This document shows positions 8,696-27,883 of a DNA stretch of 64,000 nt, piece by piece. The position numbers and the translations under genes are program-made. The notes under the pieces are model-generated. The model ran no database searches. It saw nothing but the letters and a program-made list of their open reading frames with translations, and was not told the DNA's origin. Each line of letters opens with the position of its first letter. Position 1 is the stretch's first letter. Source of the DNA: Rhizobium sp. SSA_523 (GTDB lineage: Bacteria; Pseudomonadota; Alphaproteobacteria; Rhizobiales; Rhizobiaceae); NCBI RefSeq assembly GCF_030435705.1, contig NZ_CP129381.1:434001-498000 (forward strand). The letters are read 5' to 3'.

Positions 8696-8816
8696 GGGGA
8701 TGAGCCTCTCGAAGGATTTCGTCAATCCCCAGAGGCGGATCGCCAGAGAATAGCCGCCTCTAGGGCGGTCTCTGGTGTGCCGAACACGCACAAACCCGCC
8801 ACGCTATAAGCGCGGC
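8696..8816 (-). promoter_or_regulatory. Structured 5' leader of the metG-like gene (candidate attenuator)
   Basis: Read on the minus strand, between the leader ORF's Met codons and the metG start, several stems form. One is 8815-8809 with 8805-8799 (7 bp including one G-U, TAT loop) over the leader stop codon. A second (A) is CCAGAGA 8775-8769 with 8749-8743 enclosing CCGCC 8768-8764 with 8758-8754. A third (B) is 8763-8754 with 8738-8729, 10 bp including one G-U. A fourth (C) is GGGGAT 8730-8725 with ATCCCC 8701-8696 abutting the ATG. A and B share 8758-8754, and B and C share 8730-8729, so the folds exclude each other. No T-run follows any stem, which favours translational control or Rho over an intrinsic terminator. 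Confidence 0.55.
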
Positions 8817-8851
8817 ATCATCATTTCGACGGTGGAAAAGGTGCTGTTCAT
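8804..8851 (-). CDS. Candidate Met-rich leader peptide upstream of metG
   Basis: A 15-codon ORF on the minus strand reading MNSTFSTVEMMMPRL, then TAG. AGGAG (8859-8855) lies 3 nt before the ATG. Codons 10-12 (8824-8816) are three consecutive ATGs. The ORF ends 108 nt before the start of a methionyl-tRNA synthetase gene, and the intervening RNA can form alternative hairpins. In known attenuators a short peptide rich in the regulatory amino acid makes the ribosome stall when the charged tRNA is scarce. A Met-triplet peptide before a MetRS gene fits that logic. Too short to be proven by sequence alone. Confidence 0.55.
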   Translation of the reverse strand: MNSTFSTVEMMMPRL

Positions 8852-8962
8852 GGTCTCCTGCCTAGCAGTTGCAGCGCCGCTTCACAAGACCGACGTGGTT
8901 GCGCGGTGAGCAACACCGCCTTGCAGCTTTCGCTTCAGGCAGGAGGAGCGTCTCCTTTGCCG

Positions 8963-10762
8963 TCAGCTGCCGTCGCTGCCTTCCCCGGGAAAGCGCCAGT
9001 GCCGGGCCCTGGCTTCAGCCTGCCATAGCGCGAAGTAGCGGCCTTTTTCCGCCAGCAGCGCGGCATGCGTTCCGCATTCCGCCACGCATCCACGCTCCAG
9101 CACGAGGATCTGGTCCGCCCGCGCAATGGTGTGCAGGCGGTGGGCAATGACGATCACCGTCCTTTGCCGCACGAGGCCGTCCAGCGCCTGCTGCACGTCC
9201 CGTTCACTCTCGAGGTCGAGTGCGGCCGTCGGCTCGTCGAGCACGAGGATCGGCGCATCCTTCAGGAAGGCACGCGCGATCGACAGGCGCTGACGTTCGC
9301 CGCCGGAGAGCCGGGCGGCTCGTTCGTCGAGGCGGGTCTGCCAGCCATCGGGCAGGTTGTCGATAAATTCAAGGCAGCCGGCCGCCTCCGCCGCGCGAAT
9401 GACCTGCGCCCGCGTGGCATCCGGCCGCGCCAGGCAGATATTCTCCCAGACCGTATCATTGAACAGATAGACATCCTGGAAGACGCAGCCGATCATGCCG
9501 GCAAGCCTGTCTTGCGGGATCTGGCGAAGATCGACGCCGCCTATGCTGATCTTGCCCTGTTCGGGATCGTCCTGCCGCTGGAGCAGGCGGATGAAACTCG
9601 TCTTGCCGGATCCCGATGAGCCGACGAGCGCGGTGAAACTCCCCTCCGGAATTTGCGCCGTCACCCCGGTCAGCACCGGCGGACGCGTACGATCATAGCG
9701 GAATGTCACATCCGAGACGGCGATGTCGTGGCGAAGGGGGACGGCCTGCGGCAGCCATTGCGGCAGGGGTTCTACGGTGGTGATGGCGTCGATCTCGGTC
9801 AAGGCGGCATCCATCATCGACAGGAGGGTGGTGAAGCTGACGACCGTGCCGAGCGGCTCCATGAAACGCGCGGTCATGACGGCGGCGGCAGCGAAAATCG
9901 CCATGTCCGACCCATCGGCGCCTTGCCGGGTCAGACACAAAGCGAGGACGCAGAACAGGCTCATCTCGACGAGGATGACGACCAGCATATTGCCAGTCCC
10001 GGTCTTTCGATGCTCCTGTCGCTGAAGATTTTCCATCTGGCGAAACTGGCCGCGCAGGCCCTCTGCCTTGTCGCCTTCGAGGCAGGCCGAGCGATAGGCG
10101 GGAAGGGCCTGCAGATAGTCGAGGATCGCGGCGTTCAAGCCGGCCTGGGCCAGGCCGAGCCTCAGTCTGGACGCGTCGAGCGCTGGCCGCTGCCAATGAT
10201 AGAGCACAAGCACCAGGGGCACGATGCTCAGCAGGGCAAGTCCCAGGCGCCAGTCGAAGGCGCAGAGGGCGAGATAGGCAATGATGGGCGTGATCAGCGC
10301 GCTCGCAAGCAGGTTGGCAAGGGTGAGCGCGAAGCCGAAGATTTCATCGATGCCGCCGAGCAGGGTGGCGGTGACATCGCCCGAGCGGTGGTCGGAGATC
10401 GCCTTCTGCGGCATCCGGCGCAGCGACTCACCGAGCGACAGGCGAAGCTTATGACCGCAGCGCGTCATGGAGCCGCCGAAGTCGAAGCCTTGCGCCCGCC
10501 AGCGCAGCAGGGTCGCGATGACCGTGGCGCAGCCGAATATCGCGAGCCAGGCAAGAGGAGCATGCCCGTTTTCTCCGGTGACGAGGCTGGCCAGGAGCGG
10601 TGCGAGGGCGGCAAAGGCGAGCCCCTGGAAGACGGCGGAAAGGCACAGGTCGAAAAGGCTTTGCCGCAGCGCCGATGCCTCTTTTCCGGCATGCCGGCAA
10701 AGATGTGTATAGGTCCGTACGATAGGGATGGCGGCGACACGCGCCCGGATGGCGTTCAGCAT
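8963..10762 (-). CDS. ABC transporter, fused permease/ATPase (YbtQ-like siderophore importer subunit)
   Basis: A 599-residue half-transporter. Residues ~20-300 hold about six membrane helices in the ABC exporter fold. The nucleotide-binding domain from ~345 has Walker A GSSGSGKTS, Q-loop CVFQDVYLF, signature LSGGERQR, Walker B ILVLDEPTA and H-loop IAHRLH. Its neighbours (second ABC half, RhtX/FptX-like MFS, FyuA-like receptor, AraC regulator) are the YbtP-YbtQ-YbtX-FyuA-YbtA set. In that system these exporter-fold proteins import ferric siderophore across the inner membrane. It overlaps the end of the upstream ABC gene by 7 bp, indicating co-translation and probably a heterodimer. The direction and substrate are inferred from context. 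Confidence 0.85.
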   Translation of the reverse strand: MLNAIRARVAAIPIVRTYTHLCRHAGKEASALRQSLFDLCLSAVFQGLAFAALAPLLASLVTGENGHAPLAWLAIFGCATVIATLLRWRAQGFDFGGSMTRCGHKLRLSLGESLRRMPQKAISDHRSGDVTATLLGGIDEIFGFALTLANLLASALITPIIAYLALCAFDWRLGLALLSIVPLVLVLYHWQRPALDASRLRLGLAQAGLNAAILDYLQALPAYRSACLEGDKAEGLRGQFRQMENLQRQEHRKTGTGNMLVVILVEMSLFCVLALCLTRQGADGSDMAIFAAAAVMTARFMEPLGTVVSFTTLLSMMDAALTEIDAITTVEPLPQWLPQAVPLRHDIAVSDVTFRYDRTRPPVLTGVTAQIPEGSFTALVGSSGSGKTSFIRLLQRQDDPEQGKISIGGVDLRQIPQDRLAGMIGCVFQDVYLFNDTVWENICLARPDATRAQVIRAAEAAGCLEFIDNLPDGWQTRLDERAARLSGGERQRLSIARAFLKDAPILVLDEPTAALDLESERDVQQALDGLVRQRTVIVIAHRLHTIARADQILVLERGCVAECGTHAALLAEKGRYFALWQAEARARHWRFPGEGSDGS

Positions 10763-12525
10763 GGTGCGCCGTCCCGCTCGCCTGCCAATGCCCAGTCGCG
10801 GGATGCCAGATGCGCGGCCCAGAGCCTCGAATAGGACCCCGCGGCTGCAAGCAACGCCTCGTGCGGGCCTGCCTCGACGATCCGGCCTTTTTCCAGCAAC
10901 AGGATCTGGTCGGCCTGCGTGATGGTTGCCAGACGGTGGGAGACGACAATGATCGTCTTGTCGCGCCTGAGCCTGGCCAAAGCGCGGATCATCGCCTCTT
11001 CATGATCCGGATCGGCAAAGGATGTGACTTCGTCGAGGATAAGGATGGGCCGGTCCTGCAGGATGGCGCGGGCAAGACAAAGCCGCTGGCGCTGCCCGCC
11101 CGACAGCCGGGCTCCCAATTCGCCGAGCTCGGTCGCATAGGCCTGTGGCAGGCTGTTGACGAAATCATGCAGCTGAGCGGCCTTTGCCGCAGCGACCACC
11201 GCCTCGTCCGATCTATCCGAGGCGCCAAGGCGGATATTGTCGGCGATCGAGCCGGAAAACAGATAGGGCTCCTGAAACACGAAACCGATCCTGCGCATCA
11301 GGCTGTCGCGGTCGACCTCCCGAAGATCGACGCCGCCAATCCGGATGGTTCCGGAGGTGACATCCAAGAAACGGGGAATGAGACGCGCCAGGCTTGTCTT
11401 GCCGGCGCCGGAGGGGCCGACAAGTGCTGTCACCGTGCCGGGCCTTGCGATAAAACTGATCTGCGTCAGGGCGTCGGCACCGCCGGCGTAGCGCAGGCTC
11501 ACTTCGTCGAAGACGATTTCGGCACGGGCGGGCACCGGCAGGGCGGCCGAAGCCGGCTGCGCCATCCTCTCGAAAGCGAGCACCTGATTGATGCGGGCGG
11601 CGTTGATCCGCGCCTTGTTGACCATGTGGTTCAACATCATCATCGGCAGAATGGCTTCCGCCATGCCGGCGCCGAGCAGCAGGATCATCAGGAAGCTTCC
11701 GAGCTCGACGGGCTCGCGGCTCGACAGGTGGAGCGCGAGGAGGAGCAGGACGAACAGCGTCGGCAAAGGGTTGAGCAAAGCAAAGGCGCTGCGCGCAGAG
11801 AGGCTTGCATCCCGATACCACTGCGTCACCACAGTCAGATAGGCGTCGAGCGCATGGTGATAGCGGCTGAAGCTCGTGCTGCCGCTGTCGAAGCTGCGAA
11901 CCACCGGCATGGCCTGGATGAACTCGACGATGGCGGCGCTGACCGCCTCGCGCGCCTGGTTGTAGCGCGCGGTGATGGCGACATGATCGCGCATGGCAAG
12001 GCTCATCACCGCGAAACCCGCCAGGATCACGCCCGCGGCTGCCAGCGCGAAACGCCAGTCGAACCCCAGGAGAAGGAGGAAGGTCAAGGGCGGCAGGATA
12101 TAGGCGCGACCCGCCAGGGGAATGCTGTCGGCGACCACGACATGCAGGGCCTTCACATCCTCGAAGATCACCTTGGCCAGCATGCTGGACCCCGTCTGTT
12201 CGATCCTGCCCAGCGAAAGCTCTGCGAGATGGCGGGTGAGACGCTCGCGAAGCATGACCTCCAGCCGGAACGCCGCCTGGTGCGAGACGTCGAATGCCTT
12301 CAGCCGAAGCAGGCAGGACAGGGCGAGCGCGACACCTGCCCCGAACGGCAGCCACGGCATGTCGCTCAAGCTCCCGGTCGCGGTGAGCGTCACCGCAAAT
12401 CCGAGGAGGCCGAAGGCCGCAAGACCGAGCGCGCTGCCGAGAGCCGATAGCAGGATGGCGATCAGGAGCGGCCGCCGAACCGGGGCGACCAGAGGCCAGA
12501 TGCGCTTGTCCGTGATTTCAGCCAT
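10756..12525 (-). CDS. ABC transporter, fused permease/ATPase (YbtP-like siderophore importer subunit)
   Basis: 589 residues. Membrane domain ~15-300, then an ATPase domain with Walker A GPSGAGKTS, FVFQEPYLF, signature LSGGQRQR, Walker B ILILDEVTS and H-loop VSHRLA. The DEVTS after Walker B differs from the usual DEPTS. It is the partner of the 8963-10762 gene and overlaps it by 7 bp. The start at 12525 overlaps the stop of the upstream MFS gene in a TAATG junction. The reading frame is open upstream into the MFS gene, but MAEITDKRIWPLV is the natural N-terminus. It likely forms the cytoplasmic-membrane half of a phenolate-type siderophore importer. Confidence 0.85.
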   Translation of the reverse strand: MAEITDKRIWPLVAPVRRPLLIAILLSALGSALGLAAFGLLGFAVTLTATGSLSDMPWLPFGAGVALALSCLLRLKAFDVSHQAAFRLEVMLRERLTRHLAELSLGRIEQTGSSMLAKVIFEDVKALHVVVADSIPLAGRAYILPPLTFLLLLGFDWRFALAAAGVILAGFAVMSLAMRDHVAITARYNQAREAVSAAIVEFIQAMPVVRSFDSGSTSFSRYHHALDAYLTVVTQWYRDASLSARSAFALLNPLPTLFVLLLLALHLSSREPVELGSFLMILLLGAGMAEAILPMMMLNHMVNKARINAARINQVLAFERMAQPASAALPVPARAEIVFDEVSLRYAGGADALTQISFIARPGTVTALVGPSGAGKTSLARLIPRFLDVTSGTIRIGGVDLREVDRDSLMRRIGFVFQEPYLFSGSIADNIRLGASDRSDEAVVAAAKAAQLHDFVNSLPQAYATELGELGARLSGGQRQRLCLARAILQDRPILILDEVTSFADPDHEEAMIRALARLRRDKTIIVVSHRLATITQADQILLLEKGRIVEAGPHEALLAAAGSYSRLWAAHLASRDWALAGERDGAPC

Positions 12526-13796
12526 TATGCGACCTGCTGCGGCAGGCCTTGCGCCGTGCCATGCCTGGAGGAATCGGTTCGGTAGGCAAGCGACAGGAGC
12601 GCGGCCAGAAGCGCCAGGATGGAAGCCAGGATGACAACGCCGCCATAGCCGATCGGGATCGCCAGAGCCGTTGCCGCCATCATCATGGAGATCGAGACGA
12701 TCTGGCTGGCGGAGTTCTGCAGCGTGTAATCCGTCCCCGGACTGCGGGGTGAGCAATGGTCCATCATCAGCGTGGCGAGCACGGTGCTGGCCGGATTGTA
12801 GCTGCAGAAGAACAACAGGGCGGCCACGGTGCCCGACACGAGGCTTGTCCCGCCGAAGGCCGGAAGCGCCATTGCCGCAACGCCGAGCACTTGCAGGAAG
12901 GCGGCCGAGACGAGCATCCGGCGCCGCCCGAACCGGCCGACGAGCCACCCGGTCGCAAGCGCGCAGACCAGGCCGCACAGCGAACCGAGACCATTGACGA
13001 CGAAACCCGTCTGTTCCAGCGGCCAGCCGCCATCCGTCAGCATCGGCGTCAGGATGCCATAGGCGAGACCGTTGCCGATGGGAAAGACGATCAGAAGCGC
13101 AATCCACAAAGGAGAAGGCAGGCTGCGCCAGAAGCTCCAGGCCCGTTTGTAGACATCCGGCATCGAGGCCTTTTGCAGGCCGGATGGCGGCTCGCGGAAC
13201 CGCAAGAGCTGGAGGAGCGGCAGGCAGGTCGAGGCGGCCAGAATGACCATGCAGCCGCGCCAGCCCAGGAAGGGGTAGGCGACGAGCGTCGCGCCGCCGC
13301 CCAACAGATTGCCGATCAGCCCGCCGGCCACCTGTATGCCGTTGGCAAAGCCACGACGAGCGGGCGGGACAAGGCGGCAGGCAAGCGCATCGACCGCTAT
13401 ATCCTGTGTGGCCGAGGCAAGCGAGACGAAAAGGCAGAGCGCGTAGACGATGGAAAAATGCTCGATCACGCTGAAAAAGGACAGGATCAAAAGCGCCAGA
13501 ACCATCAGCGTCTGCAAGAGAATGAGCCAGCCGCGATAATGACCGAACCGCCCGAAGCCAAACCGATCGATGAGCGGAGCCCAGAGAGGCTTCAGGGGCC
13601 AGACGAGTCCCAGCATGTAGATCATGCCGACTTGCGACAGCGGCGCACCGGCCTGGCGCAGAATTGCAGCCAGAGCGGTGACGAAAAAGCCGAGGCCGAG
13701 AAACTGCGTAATGTAGAGACTGCCGATCAACAGCCAGTCACCGCTACGGAGATCCTGCGGACCATCCCGGCCTGCCAGGGCGGACGCGAAAGCCAT
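12525..13796 (-). CDS. MFS transporter, RhtX/FptX/YbtX-like siderophore transporter
   Basis: 423 residues with about 12 membrane helices. Motifs (LVWPLKPLWAPLIDRFGFGRFGHYRGW, then LASATQDIAVDALACRLVPP) match the AmpG-like branch that contains RhtX (rhizobactin uptake), FptX (pyochelin uptake) and YbtX. The conserved ATQDIAVDAL block is the hallmark. These proteins move ferric siderophore across the inner membrane as single polypeptides. It is 3 bp downstream of the TonB receptor gene and its stop overlaps the start of the YbtP-like gene, so all four are one operon. Both MFS and ABC types are present, as in pyochelin and yersiniabactin loci. Confidence 0.85.
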   Translation of the reverse strand: MAFASALAGRDGPQDLRSGDWLLIGSLYITQFLGLGFFVTALAAILRQAGAPLSQVGMIYMLGLVWPLKPLWAPLIDRFGFGRFGHYRGWLILLQTLMVLALLILSFFSVIEHFSIVYALCLFVSLASATQDIAVDALACRLVPPARRGFANGIQVAGGLIGNLLGGGATLVAYPFLGWRGCMVILAASTCLPLLQLLRFREPPSGLQKASMPDVYKRAWSFWRSLPSPLWIALLIVFPIGNGLAYGILTPMLTDGGWPLEQTGFVVNGLGSLCGLVCALATGWLVGRFGRRRMLVSAAFLQVLGVAAMALPAFGGTSLVSGTVAALLFFCSYNPASTVLATLMMDHCSPRSPGTDYTLQNSASQIVSISMMMAATALAIPIGYGGVVILASILALLAALLSLAYRTDSSRHGTAQGLPQQVA

Positions 13797-13799
13797 GGT

Positions 13800-15920
13800 C
13801 TAAAACTTCCGTGTCACGCCAGCCATGACCGCACGGCCGCGGACCATGGCGCCGTAGCGGACGCCGGAGGCCGGCGCATCATAGGCATAGAGGTCGTATT
13901 TCTCGTCCAGCAGGTTCTCGCCGCGCAGGTAGAACTCGGTCTTGCCTTCCGCGAGGGCAATGCGGGCATCGAGCTTGTGGTAACCATCGAGATCGAAATG
14001 ATTCTGTGGATCGGCCGGCCGCTTGCCCACATAGCGATAATCGATCCGGGTGATCAGCTGCGGCTCCGTCATGCCCAGCATGGGCTCCAGGTCCCGCGTG
14101 TAGGACAGGCTCGCCGTCGCGCTCCAGGATGCGGCGTCGGGCACCTTGTTGCCGGTCAGCACGTCGCCGTCACCGATGCCAAAGATACTGGAACGGATAT
14201 CGGCATCCACATAGCTGAGCCCGGCCGTGAGGTCGAAGCCATTGCCCGGATGCCAGCCCGCGCTGAGGTCAACACCCTTGGCGCGCGTATCCGCGTTCAG
14301 CGCGCTCACGAGGAAAGTCTTGGAGTCGTAGGAGAGCAGGTGATTGTCCTCGACGCGGTTGAGATAGGCCGCGCCGCTGAGGGAAAACAGGCCTGCGGCG
14401 AATTCGGCGTCGAAACCGGCTTCGACGGAATCGGTGGTCGCGCCGCGGAACGGGCTGCCTTCGGCGATCTGCGTCGAATAGACATTGAAGCCGCCGGGCT
14501 TGAAGCCGCGCGCCACACGGGCATGGATTTCCAGGTCTGGCGTCAGAGCATAGGTCAGGCCGAGCTTGCCTGTCAGCGCATCTTCCGTGAGCTCCCGCGA
14601 ATCGGTGCTGATCCCGGCTGAGCCATGATAGGTGGCATCAAACCGGGTGCGGCTTCGCTCATAGCGCAGACCGGCGTCGAGTTTCAGCCGATCGGTCAGC
14701 GGCAGCACCGTATTGCCGTAAAGTCCGTAGCGATCTGTGTCGAAGTCGCGAAAGGCGGTGCAATAGCGCCCGAAGCTGCAGCTGTCATAGGAGCGGTCGG
14801 CATGTTCGGCAAACAGCCCGAGCGCCCATTCGAGACGCTCGCCCTCCAGGGACGACCAGCGCAGATCCTGGTCGAACACATGTTCATCGGGCTTTTCCTG
14901 CCGCCAGTAGAGTGATGGCGAGTGGTAGAGAGCCGCCATCAGTGCCTTGTCGTAGACCAGCGCCTCGTTGGATTTGGCATGGTAGAAGGACGAGGTCGAT
15001 GTGATGCGGCTGGTTGGAAAATCATGCGAGAGCTTCAATGCCGCCCGATCGATCGTTTGGCGCACATCATTGTAGAAGCCGGCGGGAAGGTCGAGCACCG
15101 GCTGATCCGGATAGGGACGCAGAACCAGAAGCGTAGGCCAGGCCCGCGAATCCTGCCGCTCCAGCGTGAGAAGCGCCGAGGTCGCGTCGTCAATATCCCA
15201 TAAGAGGCTGCCGCGAACGGCGAAATCGCTGGGCTTGCTGATGGGCTCTCCATCCGCCAGCCTGTCGATCCAGTGGTTCTCGCCGGAATAGCGCATGGCG
15301 AAGCGCCCGCTGAGGTCTTCCGTCAGGCCGCCGCCAATCGCGCCCTCCACCGTGTGCTGCCGCCCGGTGCCCAATTCGCTGCCGATATAGCCGTCGAATT
15401 CCTGCGATGGCAGTCGCGGCGTCATGCTGACGAGGCCAGCGCTGGCTGAGGCGGAGGACTGAGTGCCCTGCGGCCCCTTCAACACGTCTATACTGTCGAG
15501 ATCCAGCGTGCCAAGCCTGAGATAGCGAGCATTCATGGAGCTGCCATTGACGGAAAACGACAGGAGGCTGTCGTCCATGTTCATCGGATACATGCCGCCG
15601 ACACCCCGCACATAGGTGGTCGACAAATGGTTGCCGCCCCAGGAATTGATGGCGATGCCGGGCGTCGCGTTCAGAACGTCCTCGACCGTCTTCAGCCGTC
15701 GTTCTTCCATCGTCTTCGCGCTGAAGGGCGTATGGCCGGCCGAGCCACTGCCAGTGGCCGAGACCGTCACCCTTTCCAAAACTGTGTCGTCATTCGCGCC
15801 CGGCCTGCGAGCCTTCCCATCCTGCGCCTGGCCCACTGCCGGCAGCAGAAGGACGAGGGTAAAGAGCGCGCAGGACAGACTTGTCGCATTGTGGAGGTGG
15901 CGGAAGAAGGCAGTATGCAT
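13800..15920 (-). CDS. TonB-dependent siderophore receptor, FyuA/Psn-like
   Basis: About 706 residues. The start at 15920 gives a clean signal peptide (ending VGQAQ) and has GGAAAG 8 nt before it; an alternative ATG is at 15956. The plug domain (about 50-170) shows TVSATG, the TTYVRGVGG segment and DVLKGPQGTQSSASASAGLVSM. The C-terminal barrel ends with GRAVMAGVTRKF, including the terminal Phe used by BAM. The overall pattern resembles the yersiniabactin/pesticin receptor FyuA. It moves ferric siderophore across the outer membrane using TonB energy. It leads the operon MFS-YbtP-YbtQ and is divergent from an AraC regulator, with 103 bp between the two starts. Confidence 0.88.
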   Translation of the reverse strand: MHTAFFRHLHNATSLSCALFTLVLLLPAVGQAQDGKARRPGANDDTVLERVTVSATGSGSAGHTPFSAKTMEERRLKTVEDVLNATPGIAINSWGGNHLSTTYVRGVGGMYPMNMDDSLLSFSVNGSSMNARYLRLGTLDLDSIDVLKGPQGTQSSASASAGLVSMTPRLPSQEFDGYIGSELGTGRQHTVEGAIGGGLTEDLSGRFAMRYSGENHWIDRLADGEPISKPSDFAVRGSLLWDIDDATSALLTLERQDSRAWPTLLVLRPYPDQPVLDLPAGFYNDVRQTIDRAALKLSHDFPTSRITSTSSFYHAKSNEALVYDKALMAALYHSPSLYWRQEKPDEHVFDQDLRWSSLEGERLEWALGLFAEHADRSYDSCSFGRYCTAFRDFDTDRYGLYGNTVLPLTDRLKLDAGLRYERSRTRFDATYHGSAGISTDSRELTEDALTGKLGLTYALTPDLEIHARVARGFKPGGFNVYSTQIAEGSPFRGATTDSVEAGFDAEFAAGLFSLSGAAYLNRVEDNHLLSYDSKTFLVSALNADTRAKGVDLSAGWHPGNGFDLTAGLSYVDADIRSSIFGIGDGDVLTGNKVPDAASWSATASLSYTRDLEPMLGMTEPQLITRIDYRYVGKRPADPQNHFDLDGYHKLDARIALAEGKTEFYLRGENLLDEKYDLYAYDAPASGVRYGAMVRGRAVMAGVTRKF

Positions 15921-16023
15921 GAACTTGCTTTCCAGTCTCGAAATACATGAGTTCATCTATCAACTATTCTGTTTGCTTTTCCGCCCCGATAGAGTCAAAG
16001 ATCAACCGCTTCCAATCAAACTC

Positions 16024-17019
16024 ATGATTGTCATGCCATCAGCATCCCGAAGACCTTCTGTCGGAACCACCTCAGCATCAGGATTTCCCCCGGAGCGGGA
16101 GAGCCATCGGCTGATCTCAAGCTTTCTCTCGCAGGACCGCGCGGGCCAGGCCGGACCGCATCGATATGAAAGCGCTTTCCTTCCCGTGCAGGATGGCCTC
16201 GAATTGCTGTATTGGAAGGGATGGTTCGCCGAGACGGTCGACATGGCGCTGCTGGATGATGCGGATCGCATTTTCTTCAGCTTCAACTGCCGCATGGACG
16301 GCGCAGCGGCCTGCATTTTCCAGGGCAATGGCGCCGGCGAGCACGTGATCGGCGAGAATGCCGGCACCATCCAATACGGCCCGGGCCGGCGCGGGATCTA
16401 TCGTCAGAGCGGGCTGGTGGAAAACCTGTCGATCATGATCCGGCGGGATCTGTTCGAGACCTGGTGCCGCGATGTCGATCCGGACCTGAGCGAAATGCTG
16501 CGATCGGGAGGCTTCCAGGGAGGCCACCGGGGCGGCGAACTCATGGCGACGGCGCATCTTCTCGGCGAGGCGCTGCAGCTCGTCGCAAAGGGCGACCGGC
16601 AGGCGAGGCATTCATTGTGGTTTCAGGCTCAGAGCATGCTCATCATCGGCCTGTTTCTGGAAGCGCGGACGGAGGCCGGCGAGGGCAAAGTTTCAGAGGC
16701 GCAGCGCCAGCGCCTGCACAAGGCGCGCGACCGGCTGCTTTCCGATCTCAGTCTCGCCCCGGCGCTTGCGGATCTGGCCCGCGATGCCGGGCTGAGCCTG
16801 CCCAGCCTGACGCGCGGCTTCCGCGCGCTTTATGGCGACAGCCCCTACAACCTCTTCCAGAAAGAACGCATGCAGGCGGCCCGCCGTCGCCTTCTGGATG
16901 CGGATGGCTCCGTCGCGTCGATCGCCACGGAATTCGGTTATACCAATACCAGCCATTTCGCCTCTGCCTTCCGCAAGCAGTTCGGCATCGCCCCCGGCTC
17001 GCTGAAGCGCCAGGGCTGA
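16024..17019 (+). CDS. AraC family regulator (YbtA/PchR/RhrA-like)
   Basis: About 331 residues from ATG 16024 (a second ATG at 16033 is possible; the frame is open upstream but runs antisense through the receptor gene). The C-terminal ~95 residues are a double HTH: LADLARDAGLSLPSLTRGFRALYGDSPYNLFQKERMQAARR, then VASIATEFGYTNTSHFASAFRKQFGIAPGSLKR. The N-terminal half should bind the ferric siderophore, as in PchR/YbtA, where ligand-bound regulator activates the receptor and transport genes. The gene is divergent from the receptor, the standard arrangement for such activators. A 13-bp tandem repeat covers its stop codon. Confidence 0.88.
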   Translation: MIVMPSASRRPSVGTTSASGFPPERESHRLISSFLSQDRAGQAGPHRYESAFLPVQDGLELLYWKGWFAETVDMALLDDADRIFFSFNCRMDGAAACIFQGNGAGEHVIGENAGTIQYGPGRRGIYRQSGLVENLSIMIRRDLFETWCRDVDPDLSEMLRSGGFQGGHRGGELMATAHLLGEALQLVAKGDRQARHSLWFQAQSMLIIGLFLEARTEAGEGKVSEAQRQRLHKARDRLLSDLSLAPALADLARDAGLSLPSLTRGFRALYGDSPYNLFQKERMQAARRRLLDADGSVASIATEFGYTNTSHFASAFRKQFGIAPGSLKRQG

Positions 17020-20623: not shown

Positions 20624-21379
20624 CTAAGGACCTATCCGAGAGAGGGGGCGGTCCGCCTCTTTCGCCGGCACCTCGTCCAATGGACAGGTGCCGCAGAGCT
20701 TGAGTGAGGGGATGAGATAGCGCAGGCAGCAGACCTTCCGCTTGCGAACCGATCTGCCATCCTTGACCGTGTAGCGAACCGGCTCGTAAAGCATATTGCG
20801 CCGTCCGTCCGGCCAGAGCCGGCTGGCCAGCATGTCGCGACCGTGGGAAATGCTCTGCGTCTCGCCGATCATCCCGGCGCAGAAGCCGATCACGTTTTCG
20901 GTAATGTTGCCGACATTGGCCCACAGGACCTTCTGGGGCAGTCCGCTGACTTTGGACAGGCTGGCGACCAGCGGCAGGACATGCCCATCGAAGATCTCGT
21001 CGAACCGGTCGCTGAAATGCTCGGATACCGGCACCGGCGTGCCTGCATGCTCGAGAAAGAACTGCTGCGGACGACCATCGGCGGCAAGCGTGACCCCCAT
21101 AGCCTCCAGCCGAACCGGCAATGCCCGGCTGAGGACAAGGTTGATTGCGAGGACCGGCATCAGAAGGTGGGAAAAATACTGCTTGGACCATTGCGATGCC
21201 ACGGCCCGCTGTTCAGGTTCCGCGTAATTGCCGGCGAAGCGGGCCAGCACCTGGTGCAGGTAATCCGGTTCAGCGAGCACGGGCCCGGCAATGACTGCCG
21301 GCCTGCCGTCGAACAGACAGAGCCGGTCTCCCGTCTCCACGAGTGGTTCGGCAAACAGCTGCCTAAACTCTTCGATCAT
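20624..21379 (-). CDS. fhuF: FhuF-type siderophore-iron reductase
   Basis: 251 residues. The C-terminus carries the FhuF 2Fe-2S motif C-C-x10-C-x2-C (VCCLRYLIPSLKLCGTC; Cys217, 218, 229 and 232). This unusual arrangement defines the family. FhuF reduces ferric hydroxamate siderophores in the cytoplasm to release iron. The start overlaps the 3' end of the fhuB-like gene by 17 bp, so it is the last gene of that operon. Its presence argues that the substrate is a hydroxamate such as ferrichrome, coprogen or ferrioxamine. Confidence 0.9.
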   Translation of the reverse strand: MIEEFRQLFAEPLVETGDRLCLFDGRPAVIAGPVLAEPDYLHQVLARFAGNYAEPEQRAVASQWSKQYFSHLLMPVLAINLVLSRALPVRLEAMGVTLAADGRPQQFFLEHAGTPVPVSEHFSDRFDEIFDGHVLPLVASLSKVSGLPQKVLWANVGNITENVIGFCAGMIGETQSISHGRDMLASRLWPDGRRNMLYEPVRYTVKDGRSVRKRKVCCLRYLIPSLKLCGTCPLDEVPAKEADRPLSRIGP

Positions 21380-23378
21380 GCCTTAGTCCTCGCAGCAGGA
21401 AATAGAGACTGCCCAGCAGTGTTGCCACGGTACCGGCCGGGATCTGCCAGGGAAAGGCGATAGTCCGGCCCAGCCAGTCTGCGAGGATCATGCAGGTGGC
21501 GCCGATGATTGCCGCACCATAGACCTGCTGCATCGGCCGGTTCAGCCCGGCGCTCCGGGCGAGATGCGGCGCGACCAGGCCGGCAAAGCTCAGCGGGCCG
21601 ACCAGGAGCGTTGCGGCACCGGTCATCGCGCCGATGAGGAGCATAAGGATCAGCCGGCTTCTGGCGACGCCGATGCCGAGCGAGCGCGTTGCTTCCGCAC
21701 CCATCGGCAGGATGGCAAGCCAGCGGGCAAGAAAGGGCACGAGAGCCAGGGAAATCGCCGCGAGCAGGAGGGCGAGCCAGGCATCGCGTTCGGTCACGGA
21801 ATAGGTCGATCCGGCCATCCAGCCGAGAAGCCGCTGGACGCGCATGTCGCCGAACAGCGCGAGCAGAGAGGTGAGGGCGCCGGTGAGGGCCGCAAGCGCA
21901 ATGCCAGCCAGCAACATCCGTTCCGATGCAAAGCCTGACCGTCGGCCGGACCAGAGGAGAAGCGCCAGAACCAGAAGTGCCCCCGCACCGGAGAGCAGCA
22001 TCATACCTGTCCGGCCAAGGCCCGGCAGGAAGAAAATGGTGATCATGAGCACCAGGGCGCCGCCGGAGGAGAGGCCGAGGATTTCAGGGCTCGCAACCGG
22101 GTTGCCGGTCAGCCGCTGGATCAGGCATCCGGCAATGGCGAGCATTGCGCCGCCGGCGCCGGCGGCGACCATTCGCGGCAGCCGCCAGGGCAGGACGGCG
22201 CCGATATCGCTGACGGATTGGAAATGCCAGCCATCCGGCAATTTCCCGAGCGTCAGGGCGATTGCGCAGGCGAGGCCGAGCAGGGAAACAGCAACGATGA
22301 GCGAGCCCGGGCCCGCGGCATCGTGTGTTTTCGACAGGACCGGAAGATGCTGCGGTCGTTCCGGACTGCCGTGCCGTCCGGCCCGGCGAAGGAGCCATAT
22401 CAGGATCGGCGCGCCCAGAAGCGCGGTCATGGCGCCGGCCGGAATGTCGAGCCCGCCGGTCAGCCGCAGAATGCCCTGATCGACCACCGTCAAAAGCGCC
22501 GCAGAGATAAGGGCGCCGTAGACGAGCTTCCGGCGATAGCCCCTGGCACCCAGGCCGCGCGCGATCGCCGGGCCTATCAGGCCAACGAAACCGATCGGCC
22601 CCACCGTCGCGGCAATTGCGGCGCTCAAGCCTGCTGCAACCAGCAGGCCGGTCAGCCTGAGGGCGAATACCGGTGTGCCGGCGCTTCTGGCGCTGTCGTC
22701 TCCCAGATCCAGAACGGCCAGTGGCCGGTGCAGCAGCCAGGCGACAGAGCCCGTGCCAACGAGGATCGGCAGGAGCACTGTCACATTGTCCCAGCCGATC
22801 TGGACGAGGGAGCCGGTCTGCCAGGACAGAAGGTCGCTCAGTTCCTCGAAGTGGACGAGAAAGGCGGCGCCGCTATAGGCTTCCAGGCTCAAAGACAGCA
22901 TCAAGCCGATCAGAATGACGCGCACGGGCTGAAACTGCGAGCGGTATGCGAGAAGGAAAACAGTCGCGAGGGCCGCCAGTCCGCCCAGCCAGATGATGGG
23001 TTGCTGACCAAAGGCCAGGACCGATGGCATCCACAGCACGGCTGAGAAGAGCAGGGCCTTGGCGCCGGAAAATACGGCAAGCGTGCCAGGTTCGGCCAAA
23101 GGGTTGCGCAGGATCTGCTGGAAGAGGACGCCGCTCACGCCGAGGGAAAGCCCGGCGATCACGCTGATGGCAAATCGCGGCATGAGACTGTAAGTGATGA
23201 GGATGGCCTGCAGATCATCCCCTGCCGCCTGCGTCACAGCCCTCTGCAAAGGCGCAAGGCCGCCGGCATTTGCCAGCAGGAGGGCAAGTGCGGCCATGAC
23301 CGCAAGCACGGTCACGACCGGAAGCGCGGTGATGGGAAAGCGGGTCGGCGGCGCAGGTGAGGTGACAGCCATGATCAT
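21363..23378 (-). CDS. fhuB: FhuB-type siderophore ABC permease (fused double domain)
   Basis: About 671 residues made of two FecCD-type permease halves in tandem (each about 9-10 helices). Repeated landmarks are SLGVSGVLFQQILRNPLAEPGTLAV in half one and AIAGCLIQRLTGNPVASPEILGLSSGG in half two. The conserved Gly loops that contact the ATPase are also repeated (GPIGFVGLIGPAIARGLG and GPLSFAGLVAPHLARSAG). FhuB is normally about 660 residues. The start at 23378 forms an ATGA overlap with the fhuD-like stop. No fhuC ATPase gene accompanies it here, so an ATPase must come from elsewhere. Confidence 0.9.
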   Translation of the reverse strand: MIMAVTSPAPPTRFPITALPVVTVLAVMAALALLLANAGGLAPLQRAVTQAAGDDLQAILITYSLMPRFAISVIAGLSLGVSGVLFQQILRNPLAEPGTLAVFSGAKALLFSAVLWMPSVLAFGQQPIIWLGGLAALATVFLLAYRSQFQPVRVILIGLMLSLSLEAYSGAAFLVHFEELSDLLSWQTGSLVQIGWDNVTVLLPILVGTGSVAWLLHRPLAVLDLGDDSARSAGTPVFALRLTGLLVAAGLSAAIAATVGPIGFVGLIGPAIARGLGARGYRRKLVYGALISAALLTVVDQGILRLTGGLDIPAGAMTALLGAPILIWLLRRAGRHGSPERPQHLPVLSKTHDAAGPGSLIVAVSLLGLACAIALTLGKLPDGWHFQSVSDIGAVLPWRLPRMVAAGAGGAMLAIAGCLIQRLTGNPVASPEILGLSSGGALVLMITIFFLPGLGRTGMMLLSGAGALLVLALLLWSGRRSGFASERMLLAGIALAALTGALTSLLALFGDMRVQRLLGWMAGSTYSVTERDAWLALLLAAISLALVPFLARWLAILPMGAEATRSLGIGVARSRLILMLLIGAMTGAATLLVGPLSFAGLVAPHLARSAGLNRPMQQVYGAAIIGATCMILADWLGRTIAFPWQIPAGTVATLLGSLYFLLRGLRHDRRV

Positions 23379-24274
23379 CCTGCTCCAGCCAGGGAGGCAA
23401 CGAGCTGCTGCGCCAGACGTGTGGCGCTCACGACGCCGCCGCTCGGATAGATCACCGGCATCCGGTTGACCCTGCCATGGCGCACCGCAGGCAAGGCACG
23501 CCAGAGCGGGCTGTCGGCAAGGCGGGCCATTGCAATCTCCGTCTCCCGGCCGCGATCGAAATGGACGATCCGGGCATCGGGATTTCCGGCCAGTTGCTCG
23601 ATGCCGATCGACGCGACACCGGAGGCGTTGACCCGGCCCGTCCAGGCATTGCGCAGCCCCAGACGGGCCATGACATCCCCGACGAGCCCGTTTCCACCGA
23701 AAATCGCCACCTGCCGGGCATTCTGATTGAACCGGCAAAGGTAAAGCGGTGGAGTGCTGCGCCGGGAGAAGCTCTCGGATGCCGCCGCCAGTTCGGCGTT
23801 GCAATGGGCAATGGTGGCTTCAGCGGCTTCCACGCGGCCGGCCAGCTTCGCGAGGATGCGCAGCTGCGCCTGCATGTGCTCGACCGCCGGCACCGTGCCG
23901 GCAAAGGTCGAAATGGTCTGAATGCTTGCAAGACGTTTGAGATTTTCCAGTCCGCTTGCCTGCCAATCGGCCATGACGATCAGATCGGGACGCAGCAATT
24001 GGAGAAATTCTAGGTTCGGCTCCTGCAAAGGTCCGAGATCCACGGTCTCCGGCGAAAGCGAGGGCTCCGAAACCAGCCGGTTGTACAGCGGCACATTGGC
24101 AATGGCCAATGGCTGGACGCCGAGCGTCAGGAGCAATTCCGTGATCAGCAAATCCATCGAAACGATCCGTCGGGGCGGCCGGACCTGCGCCGCCTGCAGC
24201 GGCGCTGCGACGGCGAGGCTGAGTGCCATGCCGCCGCAGAGAAATCGTCGACGCGTCGAAGCCGGAACTACCAT
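23375..24274 (-). CDS. FhuD-like siderophore-binding periplasmic protein
   Basis: About 299 residues from ATG 24274. The N-terminus STRRRFLCGGMALSLAVAAPLQA is a twin-arginine-type signal, used by several FhuD proteins. The body has the class III binding-protein pattern: RRIVSMDLLITELLLTLGVQPLAIAN, then DLGPLQEPNLEFLQLLRPDLIV and IGIEQLAGNPDARIVHFD. It captures ferric siderophore in the periplasm and passes it to FhuB. The start overlaps the upstream receptor stop by 7 bp and its own end overlaps fhuB by 4 bp, so receptor, FhuD, FhuB and FhuF are one transcript. Confidence 0.88.
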   Translation of the reverse strand: MVVPASTRRRFLCGGMALSLAVAAPLQAAQVRPPRRIVSMDLLITELLLTLGVQPLAIANVPLYNRLVSEPSLSPETVDLGPLQEPNLEFLQLLRPDLIVMADWQASGLENLKRLASIQTISTFAGTVPAVEHMQAQLRILAKLAGRVEAAEATIAHCNAELAAASESFSRRSTPPLYLCRFNQNARQVAIFGGNGLVGDVMARLGLRNAWTGRVNASGVASIGIEQLAGNPDARIVHFDRGRETEIAMARLADSPLWRALPAVRHGRVNRMPVIYPSGGVVSATRLAQQLVASLAGAG

Positions 24275-26730
24275 TTGTAGCTGAGCGTGGCGGTCACTGT
24301 CAGCGGTTCGCCATAGCGGCATCCGTCCGAATAGGTGCAGGTATAGAATTTCTTGTCGAACAGGTTGCGGGCGTTAACCTTGAACTCAGCGCCTTCCAGG
24401 TCCTGGGTCAGCTTGCCGAGATCGATGCTCGCCATGGCGTCGACAAGCAGATAGGAAGGCGCGTCCGTCTTGCCATTGAAGATATTGGTCGATCCGGTAT
24501 AGCGCATGCCGGCGCCCAGCTTGACGCCCTCCAGTCCCAGATCGTCCAGCTTGTAGTCGGCCCACAGAGAGACCGCATTCCTGGGAACGAGCGGAATCTG
24601 CTGCCCGATTTCGCTGGCCAGGGCGCTCTCGGTAATCCGGGCATCGGTATAGGAATAGGCAGCGATCAGGCCGAGATTGTCGAATTCGGCCCGGGCTTCC
24701 AGTTCGACGCCGCGCGACCGCACCTCTCCGAACTGCGACACATTGCCGAGTGCATCGGTCGTCGTGAGGTTCGTTTGCGTCAGATCGTAGACCGCGGCGC
24801 TCAGCAGGAGATTGCTGCCTTCCGGCTGATAACGCAGGCCTGCCTCGTACTGAACCGCCTCGTTCGGCTGCAAAGGATTGCCGGTTACGGTCACCGAACC
24901 GGCCTGCGGCTGGAACGACTGGGCGATGCTGACATATGGGGCAAGCCCGTTGTCGAACAGGTAGACCAGTCCCGCGCGGCCCGTCAGCGCATTGTCCGAC
25001 TGGTCCGTCACGCGGCCGTTCTGGTAGGATCTGACGGTGCTGTCCGTCCAGTCCTGCCTGCCGCCCAAAAGCAGGACCCAATGATCGTCGAACTTGATCT
25101 GGTCCTGGAGGTAAAGGCCGTAGCTGTTCGCCACCGTGTCCGAACCGCGATCGACGGCATAGTTGATCGCAGGGTTGGAAAGGGTCGCGCCGGTTCTCAG
25201 ATCGAGAAGGCTCACCCCTGCGCCGCGATAGCGATGGCTGTCATAGCTGCGGCGGTAATAATCGAAGCCGCCCAGCACGGTATGCTCTGCGCCAAGGGCA
25301 TCGAACGTATATTCGAGCGAAGTGTCCTGCGTGACGCCGTAGGATACCTCCTCGCGCACGCTTGCAAGGCGGGCAAGCCGGCCGCCGGAATTGGCCAGCG
25401 TGGATACATTGCCCATCATGTAGTCCCAGCTGACGTCCGAGTAGAAATAGCGCGCCTTGTTGCGAAGCGTCAGGCCGTTGTCGAACTGATGCTCGAAGTC
25501 GTAGCCGATCGTGTAGCTGTCGCCCTTGTACCTGTCGAAGCCGTCTATGCCGAGAAACATGTCGCGGGGGATGCGTCCCGTTCGGACATCGTCCAACTGC
25601 AGCGGGGTGGAGAAGCCGGCATTGAAGTGCTGATAGCTGGAGAGAAGCGTCAGCGATGTCGCAGCATCCGGTGCGATCGTCAACGCCGGGGCGATATAGA
25701 CCTTGTCGTCCGGCGTATTGTCGACCCAGTTGTCGGCATCGCGAACAAGACCCGTCAACCGATAGCTGAAAATGCCTTCGTCATCCAAAGGCCCGCCAAA
25801 ATCCGCCGATAACTGCTTGCGGCCATAGGTGCCGAACTCGAGATTGACCTCGCGCAGCGGGTTCGTCGTCGGGCGCTTGGAGATGGCATTGACCACGCCG
25901 CCCGGCGAAAGCTGACCGTAAAGCATGGATGCCGCGCCGCGCAGGACGTCGATCCGCTCCAGTCCGTAGGGCTCCTGGCCGCCATCATAGACGTTGGACT
26001 GGTATTTCATGCCGTCCCGCAGGCTTCCGAGATTGCCGTTGGCGACATTGAACCCGCGGATGGTCAGATCGTCGACGGATCGGCTGAAGGCGCCCGATTG
26101 CATGGCGATACTGGGCGTATAGGCCAGGGAATCGGAGATCGACGTCGCGCCCTGATTGCGGATCTGGTCCGACGTGACGACAGTCACCGCCTGCGGGGTC
26201 TCGATGATCGGCGTATCGGTCTTGGTGCCCGCAGCGGTTACCCGCGCCACATAGCCTTCCACTGGTCCGGTCCCGGTCTGGTCGCCACTGACATAGACAG
26301 GGGCCAGCGTCAGCGAGTCGCCCGCCTGTCCGCCGTTCACCGTCGCCTGCTCCGCCGGACCGGAGATCGTCACCGTCGTTGCCGTCGTGAAACGATAGGT
26401 CAGGCCGGTGCCGGAAAGCAGCCGCCCAAGAGCCTCTTCCGGGCTCATGGTTCCTGAAACGCCGGCGGTCCGCTTGCTGCGCGTGATGTCAGCCGGATAA
26501 AGGAGCTGAAGATTGCTGCGGCTGCCGAAGGATGCCAGGGCGGAACCGAGCGAGCCAGGGGCAATCGAATAGGAGAGGGATGCCTGCTGGAGCCTCGGCC
26601 CGGTTGCCGCGGAAGATTGCGCCGACGCCGCTGCCGGCAGCAGGCTTACGCTTGCCAGAAGCAGGGCCGCGCGCCCTGAAAACCTCATCGTCCGCCCGTT
26701 CTTCGCGCCCGCCAACCCCGTCATGATCAT
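24268..26730 (-). CDS. TonB-dependent ferric siderophore receptor with N-terminal signalling (STN) domain
   Basis: 820 residues. After a signal peptide (ending ASAQ) comes a secretin/TonB short N-terminal domain (about 52-120: LSYSIAPGSLGSALASFG, then NLQLLYPADI and LLSGTGLTYRF). This marks transducers that talk to a FecR-type anti-sigma factor. The plug (about 165-290) includes TIRGFNVANGNLGSLRDGMKY and LRGAASMLYGQLSPGGVVNAISKRP. The barrel ends VTATLSYKW. The size and plug resemble FhuA/FoxA-type hydroxamate receptors. FecR and FecI are encoded just upstream, matching the cell-surface signalling circuit. Upstream sequence 26777-26810 resembles an ECF promoter. Confidence 0.9.
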   Translation of the reverse strand: MIMTGLAGAKNGRTMRFSGRAALLLASVSLLPAAASAQSSAATGPRLQQASLSYSIAPGSLGSALASFGSRSNLQLLYPADITRSKRTAGVSGTMSPEEALGRLLSGTGLTYRFTTATTVTISGPAEQATVNGGQAGDSLTLAPVYVSGDQTGTGPVEGYVARVTAAGTKTDTPIIETPQAVTVVTSDQIRNQGATSISDSLAYTPSIAMQSGAFSRSVDDLTIRGFNVANGNLGSLRDGMKYQSNVYDGGQEPYGLERIDVLRGAASMLYGQLSPGGVVNAISKRPTTNPLREVNLEFGTYGRKQLSADFGGPLDDEGIFSYRLTGLVRDADNWVDNTPDDKVYIAPALTIAPDAATSLTLLSSYQHFNAGFSTPLQLDDVRTGRIPRDMFLGIDGFDRYKGDSYTIGYDFEHQFDNGLTLRNKARYFYSDVSWDYMMGNVSTLANSGGRLARLASVREEVSYGVTQDTSLEYTFDALGAEHTVLGGFDYYRRSYDSHRYRGAGVSLLDLRTGATLSNPAINYAVDRGSDTVANSYGLYLQDQIKFDDHWVLLLGGRQDWTDSTVRSYQNGRVTDQSDNALTGRAGLVYLFDNGLAPYVSIAQSFQPQAGSVTVTGNPLQPNEAVQYEAGLRYQPEGSNLLLSAAVYDLTQTNLTTTDALGNVSQFGEVRSRGVELEARAEFDNLGLIAAYSYTDARITESALASEIGQQIPLVPRNAVSLWADYKLDDLGLEGVKLGAGMRYTGSTNIFNGKTDAPSYLLVDAMASIDLGKLTQDLEGAEFKVNARNLFDKKFYTCTYSDGCRYGEPLTVTATLSYKW

Positions 26731-26776
26731 CGTCCTGTCCTGTCTGCCCCGCCGGCTTTCATCGCCGTTCGGGTGC

Positions 26777-26810
26777 TAAGACGGGCGAAGGGGCAATCGC
26801 CTCACCCCCT
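26777..26810 (-). promoter_or_regulatory. Putative ECF (FecI-type) promoter of the receptor operon
   Basis: On the minus strand AGGGGGTGAG (26810-26801) is followed after 17 nt by CGTCTTA (26783-26777), about 47 nt before the receptor start. ECF promoters typically have a GC-rich -35 and a CGTC-type -10 with this spacing. The neighbouring fecI gene makes this the natural target. Assigned from shape and position, not from a verified consensus. Confidence 0.4.
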
Positions 26811-26824
26811 TTGCGACCTTTTTT

Positions 26825-27796: not shown

Positions 27797-27883
27797 TCCG
27801 TCGATTTGCCGTTTGCCTTGCATCTTAGACGGATGACAAGGCCAAAACCACACCCGGCTCCGCCCAAATTTCGGGAAGGATCT

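Follow-up and report, generated by a model that had tools for sequence, protein, structure and literature searches.

A Met-codon leader before an auxiliary methionyl-tRNA synthetase gene of Rhizobium as a probable trp-type attenuator, with similar leaders in other phyla

The gene for an auxiliary methionyl-tRNA synthetase (MetRS) in Rhizobium sp. SSA_523 is preceded by a short open reading frame (ORF) with three consecutive Met codons and by RNA that can form mutually exclusive helices, as seen in Table 1. We consider it very probable that this leader is a trp-type, ribosome-mediated transcription attenuator that senses elongator methionyl-tRNA and controls the auxiliary MetRS; we infer the individual steps of this model, namely the start site, translation, stalling and antitermination. 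The window, meaning the whole stretch of 64,000 nucleotides that was analysed, had been the subject of an earlier note, which described a minus-strand ORF at 8851-8804 with Met at codons 10-12, an AGGAG ahead of it and a MetRS gene 108 nt further on. All of these elements are present in the sequence: the AGGAG stands at 8859-8855, the leader runs from an ATG at 8851-8849 to a TAG at 8806-8804, and a 108-nt gap separates it from the MetRS start codon. The proposal of peptide-dependent attenuation through the Met codons, also made in that note, is strongly supported by the conserved Met run and by a stem topology that recurs across clades.

Table 1. Features of the Met-codon leader and the MetRS gene, in window positions, and starts of the second-design leaders, in positions of their own loci
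Feature	Position	Strand	Basis or remark
Predicted leader promoter	8859..8887	minus	-35 TTGTGA 8887-8882, extended TG 8867-8866, -10 TAGGCA 8864-8859
Leader ORF MNSTFSTVEMMMPRL, then stop; 15 codons, probably leaderless	8804..8851	minus	in frame in 32/32 aligned rhizobial loci
Control codons ATG ATG ATG, codons 10-12	8816..8824	minus	relatives have 2 to 4 Met codons
Protector hairpin 1:2, GCCGCGCU (8816-8809) with AGCGUGGC (8805-8798)	8798..8816	minus	consensus fold and triple test
Antiterminator 2:3, GGCGG (8800-8796) with CCGCC (8768-8764)	8764..8800	minus	triple test and ribosome-mask folding
Terminator hairpin 3:4, CCGCC (8768-8764) with GGCGG (8758-8754)	8754..8768	minus	consensus fold, triple test and ribosome-mask folding
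Degenerate U-tract CUAUUCU	8747..8753	minus	UUUUU or UCUUUU there in most close relatives
Shine-Dalgarno-like GAGAGG of the MetRS gene	8705..8710	minus	similar AGG-containing words there in the alignment of relatives
Auxiliary methionyl-tRNA synthetase, 523 aa	7124..8695	minus	ATG at 8695; HVGF replaces HxGH, KIGKS replaces KMSKS
Second-design leader starts	L039 5202, L040 7792, L041 2555, L042 7814		
Second-design leader starts	L044 4340, L049 4084, L052 7805, L055 7809		

The downstream gene was correctly named as a MetRS gene: its product scores 346 bits against TIGR00398 (metG), with a cut-off of 336, and its best match among solved structures is the MetRS 4dlp (E 2.5e-99). It is a second copy, since the genome has another match at C4:946412-947710. 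The two are 40% identical, and in the MetRS tree the auxiliary enzyme falls in a group apart from the rhizobial housekeeping enzymes (100/99), so that a divergent synthetase gene stands beside the housekeeping one. Directly upstream of the leader lies a siderophore uptake island (10759-17016; TonB receptor, RhtX/FptX-like MFS protein, two ABC half-transporters, AraC regulator), and a second iron-uptake group occupies 20627-28387 (FhuF-like reductase, FecCD permease, FhuA-like receptor, FecR, ECF sigma factor). A siderophore link of the MetRS was considered and rejected because in four annotated regions (three rhizobial, one Streptomyces) the MetRS has neighbours other than those in the window; two regions share some, and the MetRS looks like a single-gene unit. 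The siderophore island is therefore probably a chance neighbour. The pattern would fit a leader and MetRS that travel as a single-gene cassette.

Conservation of the leader was scored in the same way throughout: a locus counted as positive if an ORF of 8-40 codons containing two consecutive Met codons lay at most 330 nt upstream of the gene. The Met run is conserved before orthologous metG2 genes, as the attenuation proposal had anticipated: 36 of 37 loci are positive in clade I (rhizobial, at least 67% identity; L018, with MVM, fails), 5 of 5 in the clade II subfamily (about 50% identity; L090, L115-L118; e.g., MTSLPINALSCMMMPLSIREADPFA) and 11 of 17 among the actinobacterial loci (e.g., MITPSRQHRMMPRTRGC). 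The actinobacterial misses are L033, L138 and L143-L146, where the leaders of L138 and L143 hold a single internal Met codon and the remaining four members (L033, L144-L146) have no Met leader. A further group from other phyla gave 9 of 11 under the same criterion. As controls, none of 22 canonical housekeeping metG loci of the genus has a Met-run ORF, even with the upper limit set at 45 codons, and 18 of 334 background upstream regions were positive, some of them not before real genes. Repeats of counted loci (L112-L114, L083-L089), judged partly by upstream sequence, were not counted again; L143 comes from the same genome as L035, and L134 and L122 were both counted at 99% likeness. L126, which holds residues 88-521 alone and has no leader upstream, was left out of the counts. 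This locus, on a plasmid of Rhizobium sp. T1473, matches MetRS from residue 88 on and is probably a broken copy.

Thirty-two rhizobial loci were aligned (the window, L003-L032 and L034; relatives at 67-79% identity). All 32 leaders are in frame, 15 to 17 codons long and closed by TAG, with endings such as MMMPRS, MMMLRS and MMMPRL. The Met run occurs as MM, MMM, MVM, MMV or MMMM, and residues 2-9 vary. At the sequence level, the control codons of this short ORF thus specify the amino acid that the product of the downstream gene handles. The pattern ATGATGATGCNGC has seven occurrences in the genome, leader included. Three of the six other sites (L153, L154, L156) are MMM in stop-to-stop frames of 27-45 codons that are overlapped by a far longer frame, and the other three (L155, L157, L158) lie in frames of 138-311 codons.

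All 32 aligned loci carry the arrangement TTG[T/C]-16 nt-TGNTAN-8 to 10 nt-ATG, which was read as a -35 box, a 17-nt spacer and an extended -10 box. The script found it in 31 loci; in L028 it had picked an earlier TTGC, and the promoter with the 16-nt spacing was read by eye. The region 5' of the promoter diverges in the alignment, and similarity is retained in the leader and in the RNA that follows it. From the spacing, transcription is predicted to begin at the leader ATG or 1-2 nt from it, and the ORF is probably leaderless. A -10-like box also stands a few nt 5' of the leader ATG in clade II and in actinobacteria (by eye). The AGGAG, which the earlier note took as the Shine-Dalgarno sequence of the leader, did not hold up in this role. 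It is not conserved among the rhizobial loci, for which reason it was rejected as a ribosome-binding site, and it overlaps the predicted -10 box; because it lies upstream of the predicted start, it is probably not transcribed.

Three helices follow the Met run in the order 1:2, 2:3, 3:4, and the 2:3 helix of the window is extended by GUGC (8791-8788) with GCAC (8780-8777). They are mutually exclusive, and segment 1 adjoins the control codons, of which the last G alone sits in a helix of the consensus fold. Of 17 chosen leaders, 16 show this order immediately 3' of the Met codons, and in the other, L009, the 2:3 core is broken. The letters differ between three clades and the topology, with its trp order, is constant: GCUGCGCU/AGCGUGGC, GGCGG/CCGCC and AGACCGCC/GGCGGUUU for 1:2, 2:3 and 3:4 in clade I (L003); GCCGCUUUC/GGAAGCGGC, GGAAGCGGC/GUCGCUUCC and AAGUCGCUUC/GGGGCGGCUU in clade II (L090); and GCCCCG/CGGGGC, CGGGGCU/GGCCCCG and AGGCCCCG/CGGGGCCU in an actinobacterial leader (L142). 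Mutually exclusive stems had also been claimed in the earlier note. Its stem A, which includes 8758-8754, stands as the terminator 3:4, and its other two stems can be drawn as well, B from GAGGCGG and CCGCCUC, and C, next to the MetRS start codon, from GGGGAU and AUCCCC, but helices 1:2 and 2:3 had been missed.

Compared with 500 dinucleotide shuffles of each leader, the conflicting triple was significant (p ≤ 0.012) in 16 of the 17 leaders, which were chosen by us and are not independent; the window gave p = 0.010 and L009 p = 0.20. This final form of the test, with a 2 nt overlap and the last G of the Met run included, was adopted after the first result had been seen. With the stricter first form (3 nt overlap, start after the Met run, 200 shuffles), the seven clade I leaders other than L125 gave non-terminator helices (p 0.015-0.13). 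The complete triple was recovered by either form in L125 and in the leaders of clade II and actinobacteria (p 0.005-0.020 in the stricter one). RNAalifold found no compensatory change in clade I, with 0 of 23 pairs changed on both sides, because the stems hardly vary there. The expectation of stem covariation was thus disappointed inside the window's own clade and borne out by the same topology with other letters in other clades, and structural support rests on the comparison between clades.

The absence of T-runs in the window had been read as pointing to a translational mechanism. We found instead that the 9 nt behind the hairpin core contain 6 to 8 U in 34 of 36 clade I leaders and 5 U in the remaining two, the window and L009. 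The loss in the window is thus a local decay and does not reflect how the close family is built. Since close relatives have a G+C hairpin with a U-tract, and the helices follow one another as in transcription attenuators, we favour termination of transcription over a translational mechanism. Termination at the window's own copy may be leaky, as its U-tract is degenerate.

Translational attenuation would mean that stalling alters a downstream stem (B or C) hiding the MetRS ribosome-binding site, with no termination involved. The weak U-tract of the window speaks for it, as do the two stems that can be drawn near the MetRS start and the well-conserved GAUCCG[CU]CU 3' of the U-tract. A long U-tract is also absent from most of the actinobacterial leaders tested, which have strong hairpins and mostly short tracts: the 8 nt after the hairpin hold at most 3 U in L122, L136 and L142 and 4 each in L123 and L035, and the tract of L036 is long. 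However, the hairpin with at least 6 U in 9 nt in nearly all clade I leaders argues against this mechanism, and a hairpin and then a U-tract are also seen in the clade II leaders of the triple test and in eight patterned leaders of other phyla (by eye). Stem C is absent from the other rows of the alignment (by eye). We therefore regard translational attenuation as unlikely. The GAUCCG[CU]CU element (8740-8732 in the window) is conserved in most rhizobial leaders and can pair with segment 4 (GAGGCGG); such pairing may stabilise the readthrough state.

The effect of a ribosome was modelled by keeping the RNA single-stranded from its 5' end to 9 nt beyond the A-site codon, an assumed footprint. 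The resulting values rest on folding energies and not on kinetics, and p(2:3) refers to RNA ending after segment 3. In 16 leaders (the seventeen without L009, for which no helices had been identified), p(2:3) did not exceed 0.19 in naked RNA, 0.77-1.00 with the ribosome stalled on Met and 0.00 with the ribosome at the stop codon. With the ribosome at the stop codon of a longer RNA, p(3:4) was 0.76-1.00 in all 16. Naked RNA also forms 3:4, with p 0.94-1.00 in 14 of the 16, 0.71 in L028 and 0.48 in L090. In a wider set of 36 of the 37 clade I loci, with L009 included and L125 left out for its other letters around the stop codon, 30 leaders passed all thresholds, set at p(2:3) below 0.25 in naked RNA, p(2:3) above 0.7 on stalling and a terminator probability above 0.7. 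L007, L012, L016, L018 and L023 failed in naked RNA (p(2:3) 0.33-0.89), and L009 failed when stalled (0.45). A codon scan of the window gave a 2:3 probability of 0.8 with the A site at codons 10-14, 0.4 at codon 9 and 0.0 elsewhere. The scan covered nine leaders; in L115, L136, L125 and to some extent L014, helix 2:3 can also form with the ribosome at early codons, so the codon window is not sharp in these.

In the model that we propose, the transcript would begin with the leader ATG or very near it, and a ribosome would load on this leaderless RNA. When Met-tRNA is plentiful, the ribosome would reach the stop codon and cover segment 2, and the 3:4 terminator would form. When Met-tRNA is scarce, it would stall at Met codons 10-12 and cover segment 1, so that segment 2 could pair with segment 3; this pairing would block the terminator, and the MetRS gene would be transcribed. 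MetRS also charges the initiator tRNA, and the start of the leader needs fMet-tRNA. Sensing must therefore work in an intermediate range in which the initiator is charged and elongator Met-tRNA is short. Several consecutive Met codons may help sensing while the initiator tRNA is still charged. Should the leader not be started at all, the naked RNA is predicted to form 3:4 and hence to terminate.

Three further readings were weighed against this attenuator. The leader RNA or peptide could act mainly in trans, like rnTrpL and peTrpL of S. meliloti, with the link to MetRS being secondary. There is a rhizobial precedent (PMC7298713), and attenuation releases such RNAs anyway, but residues 2-9 of the peptide vary and the leader stays with MetRS while other neighbours differ in the four annotated regions. 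Strong matches of the R1 model in 297 genomes also lie only before MetRS, with misses possible, and we hold this reading to be very improbable. R1 was built on the RNAalifold consensus, which includes a long-range helix outside the proposed model. In the 297 family genomes, it gave two strong matches (104 and 110 bits), both before MetRS, and three weak ones (26-30 bits), one of them antisense to or inside a longer frame; the presence of the leader-bearing family genomes G349 and G404 among the 297 is uncertain, so a miss by R1 is possible. One weak match (L161, G218, about 1500-1650 on the reverse strand, 30 bits) has an ORF, MNNTHKTNLSIMTTVH followed by a stop, and a terminator-like hairpin. 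It precedes a 128-residue SnoaL-type gene (by eye) and is possibly another attenuator.

Similarly slight is the chance that the nascent peptide MMMPRS itself arrests the ribosome through its sequence, perhaps in response to a drug, in place of a response to Met-tRNA shortage. Met-Met-Pro is common to most rhizobial and actinobacterial leaders, but 6 of the 32 leaders have CTG for CCG, which replaces Pro with Leu and keeps the stem by a U-G pair, which makes MMP look like Met codons plus stem 1. In addition, the residues before the Met run vary, and the number of Met codons ranges from 2 to 4. Finally, a known riboswitch (SAM, T-box) or a chance ORF is the least credible reading, with hardly any probability left to it: S. 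meliloti metA and metZ are preceded by SAM-II riboswitches (PMC9373788), but the leader is conserved, and in an Rfam scan of leaders of both designs no family reached its gathering score, T-box and SAM riboswitches included. The best sub-threshold Rfam match in the window was the Pseudomonas sRNA P9 (24.8 bits, cut-off 43; 8749-8824), which overlaps the attenuator and might be a similar leader.

The auxiliary MetRS, taken as a nearly full-length match of at least 52% identity, was found in 9 of the 57 genomes searched in the genus, 7 of 394 genomes of the family sample (E ≤ 1e-130) and 3 of 397 genomes of the order sample (E ≤ 1e-120), the window's own genome being included in all three counts, and in 13 of 391 genomes of Kitasatospora's order (E ≤ 1e-120). 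Ten plasmid records carry it (E ≤ 1e-100), eight of them rhizobial or agrobacterial, one from Streptomyces and one from Embleya; in two of the ten it is partial. The MetRS tree has 51 rows. All leader-bearing enzymes placed in it belong to one group of 36 (100/99), and the rhizobial housekeeping enzymes are among the other 15. Seven rows of the group of 36 have no Met leader, judged by a short upstream Met-Met ORF (L037, L038, L043, L045, L047, L048, L051). Support was 100/100 for clade I, 100/99 for clades I and II together, 100/96 for the actinobacterial leader-bearers and 100/100 for an eight-row group of other phyla that has L045 inside. The leader-bearing L040 (trimmed) and L055 (frame ending after 147 residues) are absent from the tree, and their best BLASTP matches are members of the other-phylum group. 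HxGF was found in all clade I and II rows and in the 12 actinobacterial leader rows aligned, and rhizobial housekeeping enzymes have HxGH. Exceptions in both directions, namely HxGH in the leader-bearing L036, L052 and L055 and HxGF in the leaderless L033 and L037, indicate that motif and leader are not strictly coupled.

A second leader design was seen in other phyla. Eleven of 48 more distant MetRS loci have a short upstream Met-Met ORF. Nine of these come from Aegiribacteria, Verrucomicrobiota, Lentisphaerota, Hydrogenedentota, Planctomycetota and Chloroflexota, and seven of the nine fall in the supported tree group; the other two of the 11 are the actinobacterial L036 and L069, which looks like chance. 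All of the nine except L050 share a pattern of 28-32 codons with a Shine-Dalgarno-like sequence, MM or MMM in the middle and Ser-x-x-Met near the end. Their RNA has an outer stem (e.g., CCGAACCGG/CCGGUUCGG), a 2:3 stem (e.g., GGGCUUGG/CCAAGCCC) and a terminator with a U-tract. In the outer stem and terminator, 7 of 18 pairs have changed on both sides, and covariation is 0.319 versus 0.180 in shuffled alignments (0 of 500 as high). For the 2:3 stem, 4 of 8 pairs have changed on both sides (3 of 500 shuffles as high), with a covariation score of 0.384 versus 0.150 shuffled (0 of 500 as high). These helices were drawn by us from the same sequences, which favours them, and the count of further pair types was unremarkable (96 and 119 of 500 shuffles as high). 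Sliding the helices by one column lowered the paired cells from 92% to 49-63%. Inside the other-phylum group, L046 has the outer stem and no Met run, and L045 has no such leader (by eye). A further MetRS-type match was found in six of seven genomes tested, over the cut-off in G1212, G1213, G1214, G1216 and G1218 and as fragments below it in G1217, which suggests that the second-design MetRS genes are probably mostly spare copies; G1215, the genome of L036, has one MetRS match.

What the attenuator would be for follows in part from its logic: a sensor reports low Met-tRNA and its product makes Met-tRNA, so the loop would restore charging. A spare synthetase is useful when the housekeeping one is blocked. 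By analogy with the indolmycin-resistant TrpRS1 of Streptomyces, we give about even odds to the idea that the auxiliary MetRS stands in for an inhibited housekeeping MetRS. Two actinobacterial relatives, L145 and L146, have no Met leader, carry HxGH and show 48% identity to the streptomycete query. Their cluster (L147) encodes a SARP-type regulator, an asparagine-type class II synthetase core, a methyltransferase, an aminotransferase, an MFS pump, an ATP-grasp ligase and an S66 peptidase that matches the microcin C immunity protein MccF at 2.9e-39; L148 has the same cluster genes at 90-97% identity. MccF detoxifies aminoacyl-nucleotide Trojan-horse drugs. In the vicinity of L144 there are a SARP, a P450, two methyltransferases and the same type of class II core, and in the tree L144 and L145 neighbour the actinobacterial leader-bearers (95/82). 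The biosynthetic-looking clusters L147 and L148 (G826, G832) and L149 (G985), which hold an auxiliary-group MetRS and the asparagine-type class II core, are candidates for a MetRS-directed antibiotic. By guilt by association, the MetRS relatives in such clusters, one type with an MccF-like peptidase, suggest that the auxiliary enzyme is an inducible inhibitor-resistant MetRS.

A broader hypothesis, on which we are evenly divided between belief and doubt, is that Met-codon attenuators are a cross-phylum device on auxiliary MetRS genes that senses MetRS inhibition and switches on a resistant spare enzyme. It would come in two or more designs: in Rhizobiales and Actinobacteria the ORF is short and probably leaderless, and in Planctomycetota, Chloroflexota, Verrucomicrobiota, Lentisphaerota and others it has 28-32 codons and is led by a Shine-Dalgarno sequence. 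The hypothesis also implies undiscovered natural MetRS-directed antibiotics, some of them from the actinobacterial MetRS/MccF-like clusters, and the link between auxiliary MetRS and biosynthetic clusters points to soil as a place for them. Methionine is the sole amino acid whose attenuator needs the sensed synthetase to start its own leader. If it works, the system would reveal how a sensor of this kind keeps from switching itself off, and it would be a ready reporter for MetRS inhibitors.

The note's suggestion that a Met-codon attenuator on a tRNA synthetase would be new agrees with the titles and abstracts listed by our searches of an open-licence library, among which we found none; most subscription papers lie outside that scope. 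The second MetRS of S. pneumoniae, which we take to be of a different MetRS type from the window's and for which we know of no Met-codon leader, is likewise an extra MetRS beside the housekeeping one. It has been linked to varied sensitivity to MetRS inhibitors (Gentry 2003). Synthetase-gene attenuation is known or proposed for Phe, Trp and Leu, with candidate attenuators at Streptomyces trpS2 and leuS and at gammaproteobacterial pheST (PMC1262725). These are classical attenuators of tRNA synthetase genes as well, and a Met-codon leader is not among them in the available part of that survey of Actinobacteria, whose authors saw no conserved regulatory RNA structure in front of methionine operons (PMC1262725). 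In S. meliloti, trpL is a leaderless attenuator ORF of 14 codons (PMC7298713; PMC10117765). Like the leader described here, trpLE(G) is rhizobial and has a leaderless short ORF, consecutive control codons and two mutually exclusive structures, but it has Trp codons and a biosynthetic gene where we found Met codons and a tRNA synthetase. The S. coelicolor TrpRS1 leader reportedly holds cognate codons. The indolmycin-resistant auxiliary TrpRS of this species is under ribosome-mediated transcriptional attenuation (Vecchione and Sello 2010, via PMC4787780), a precedent also given in a review (PMC9437257). Both systems place a second, divergent aminoacyl-tRNA synthetase gene under attenuation. Resistance is a feature of TrpRS1 and, for the auxiliary MetRS, a hypothesis. 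In contrast to the TrpRS1 system, the one described here concerns methionine, occurs in Rhizobiales and several other phyla and needs the same synthetase to start its leader.
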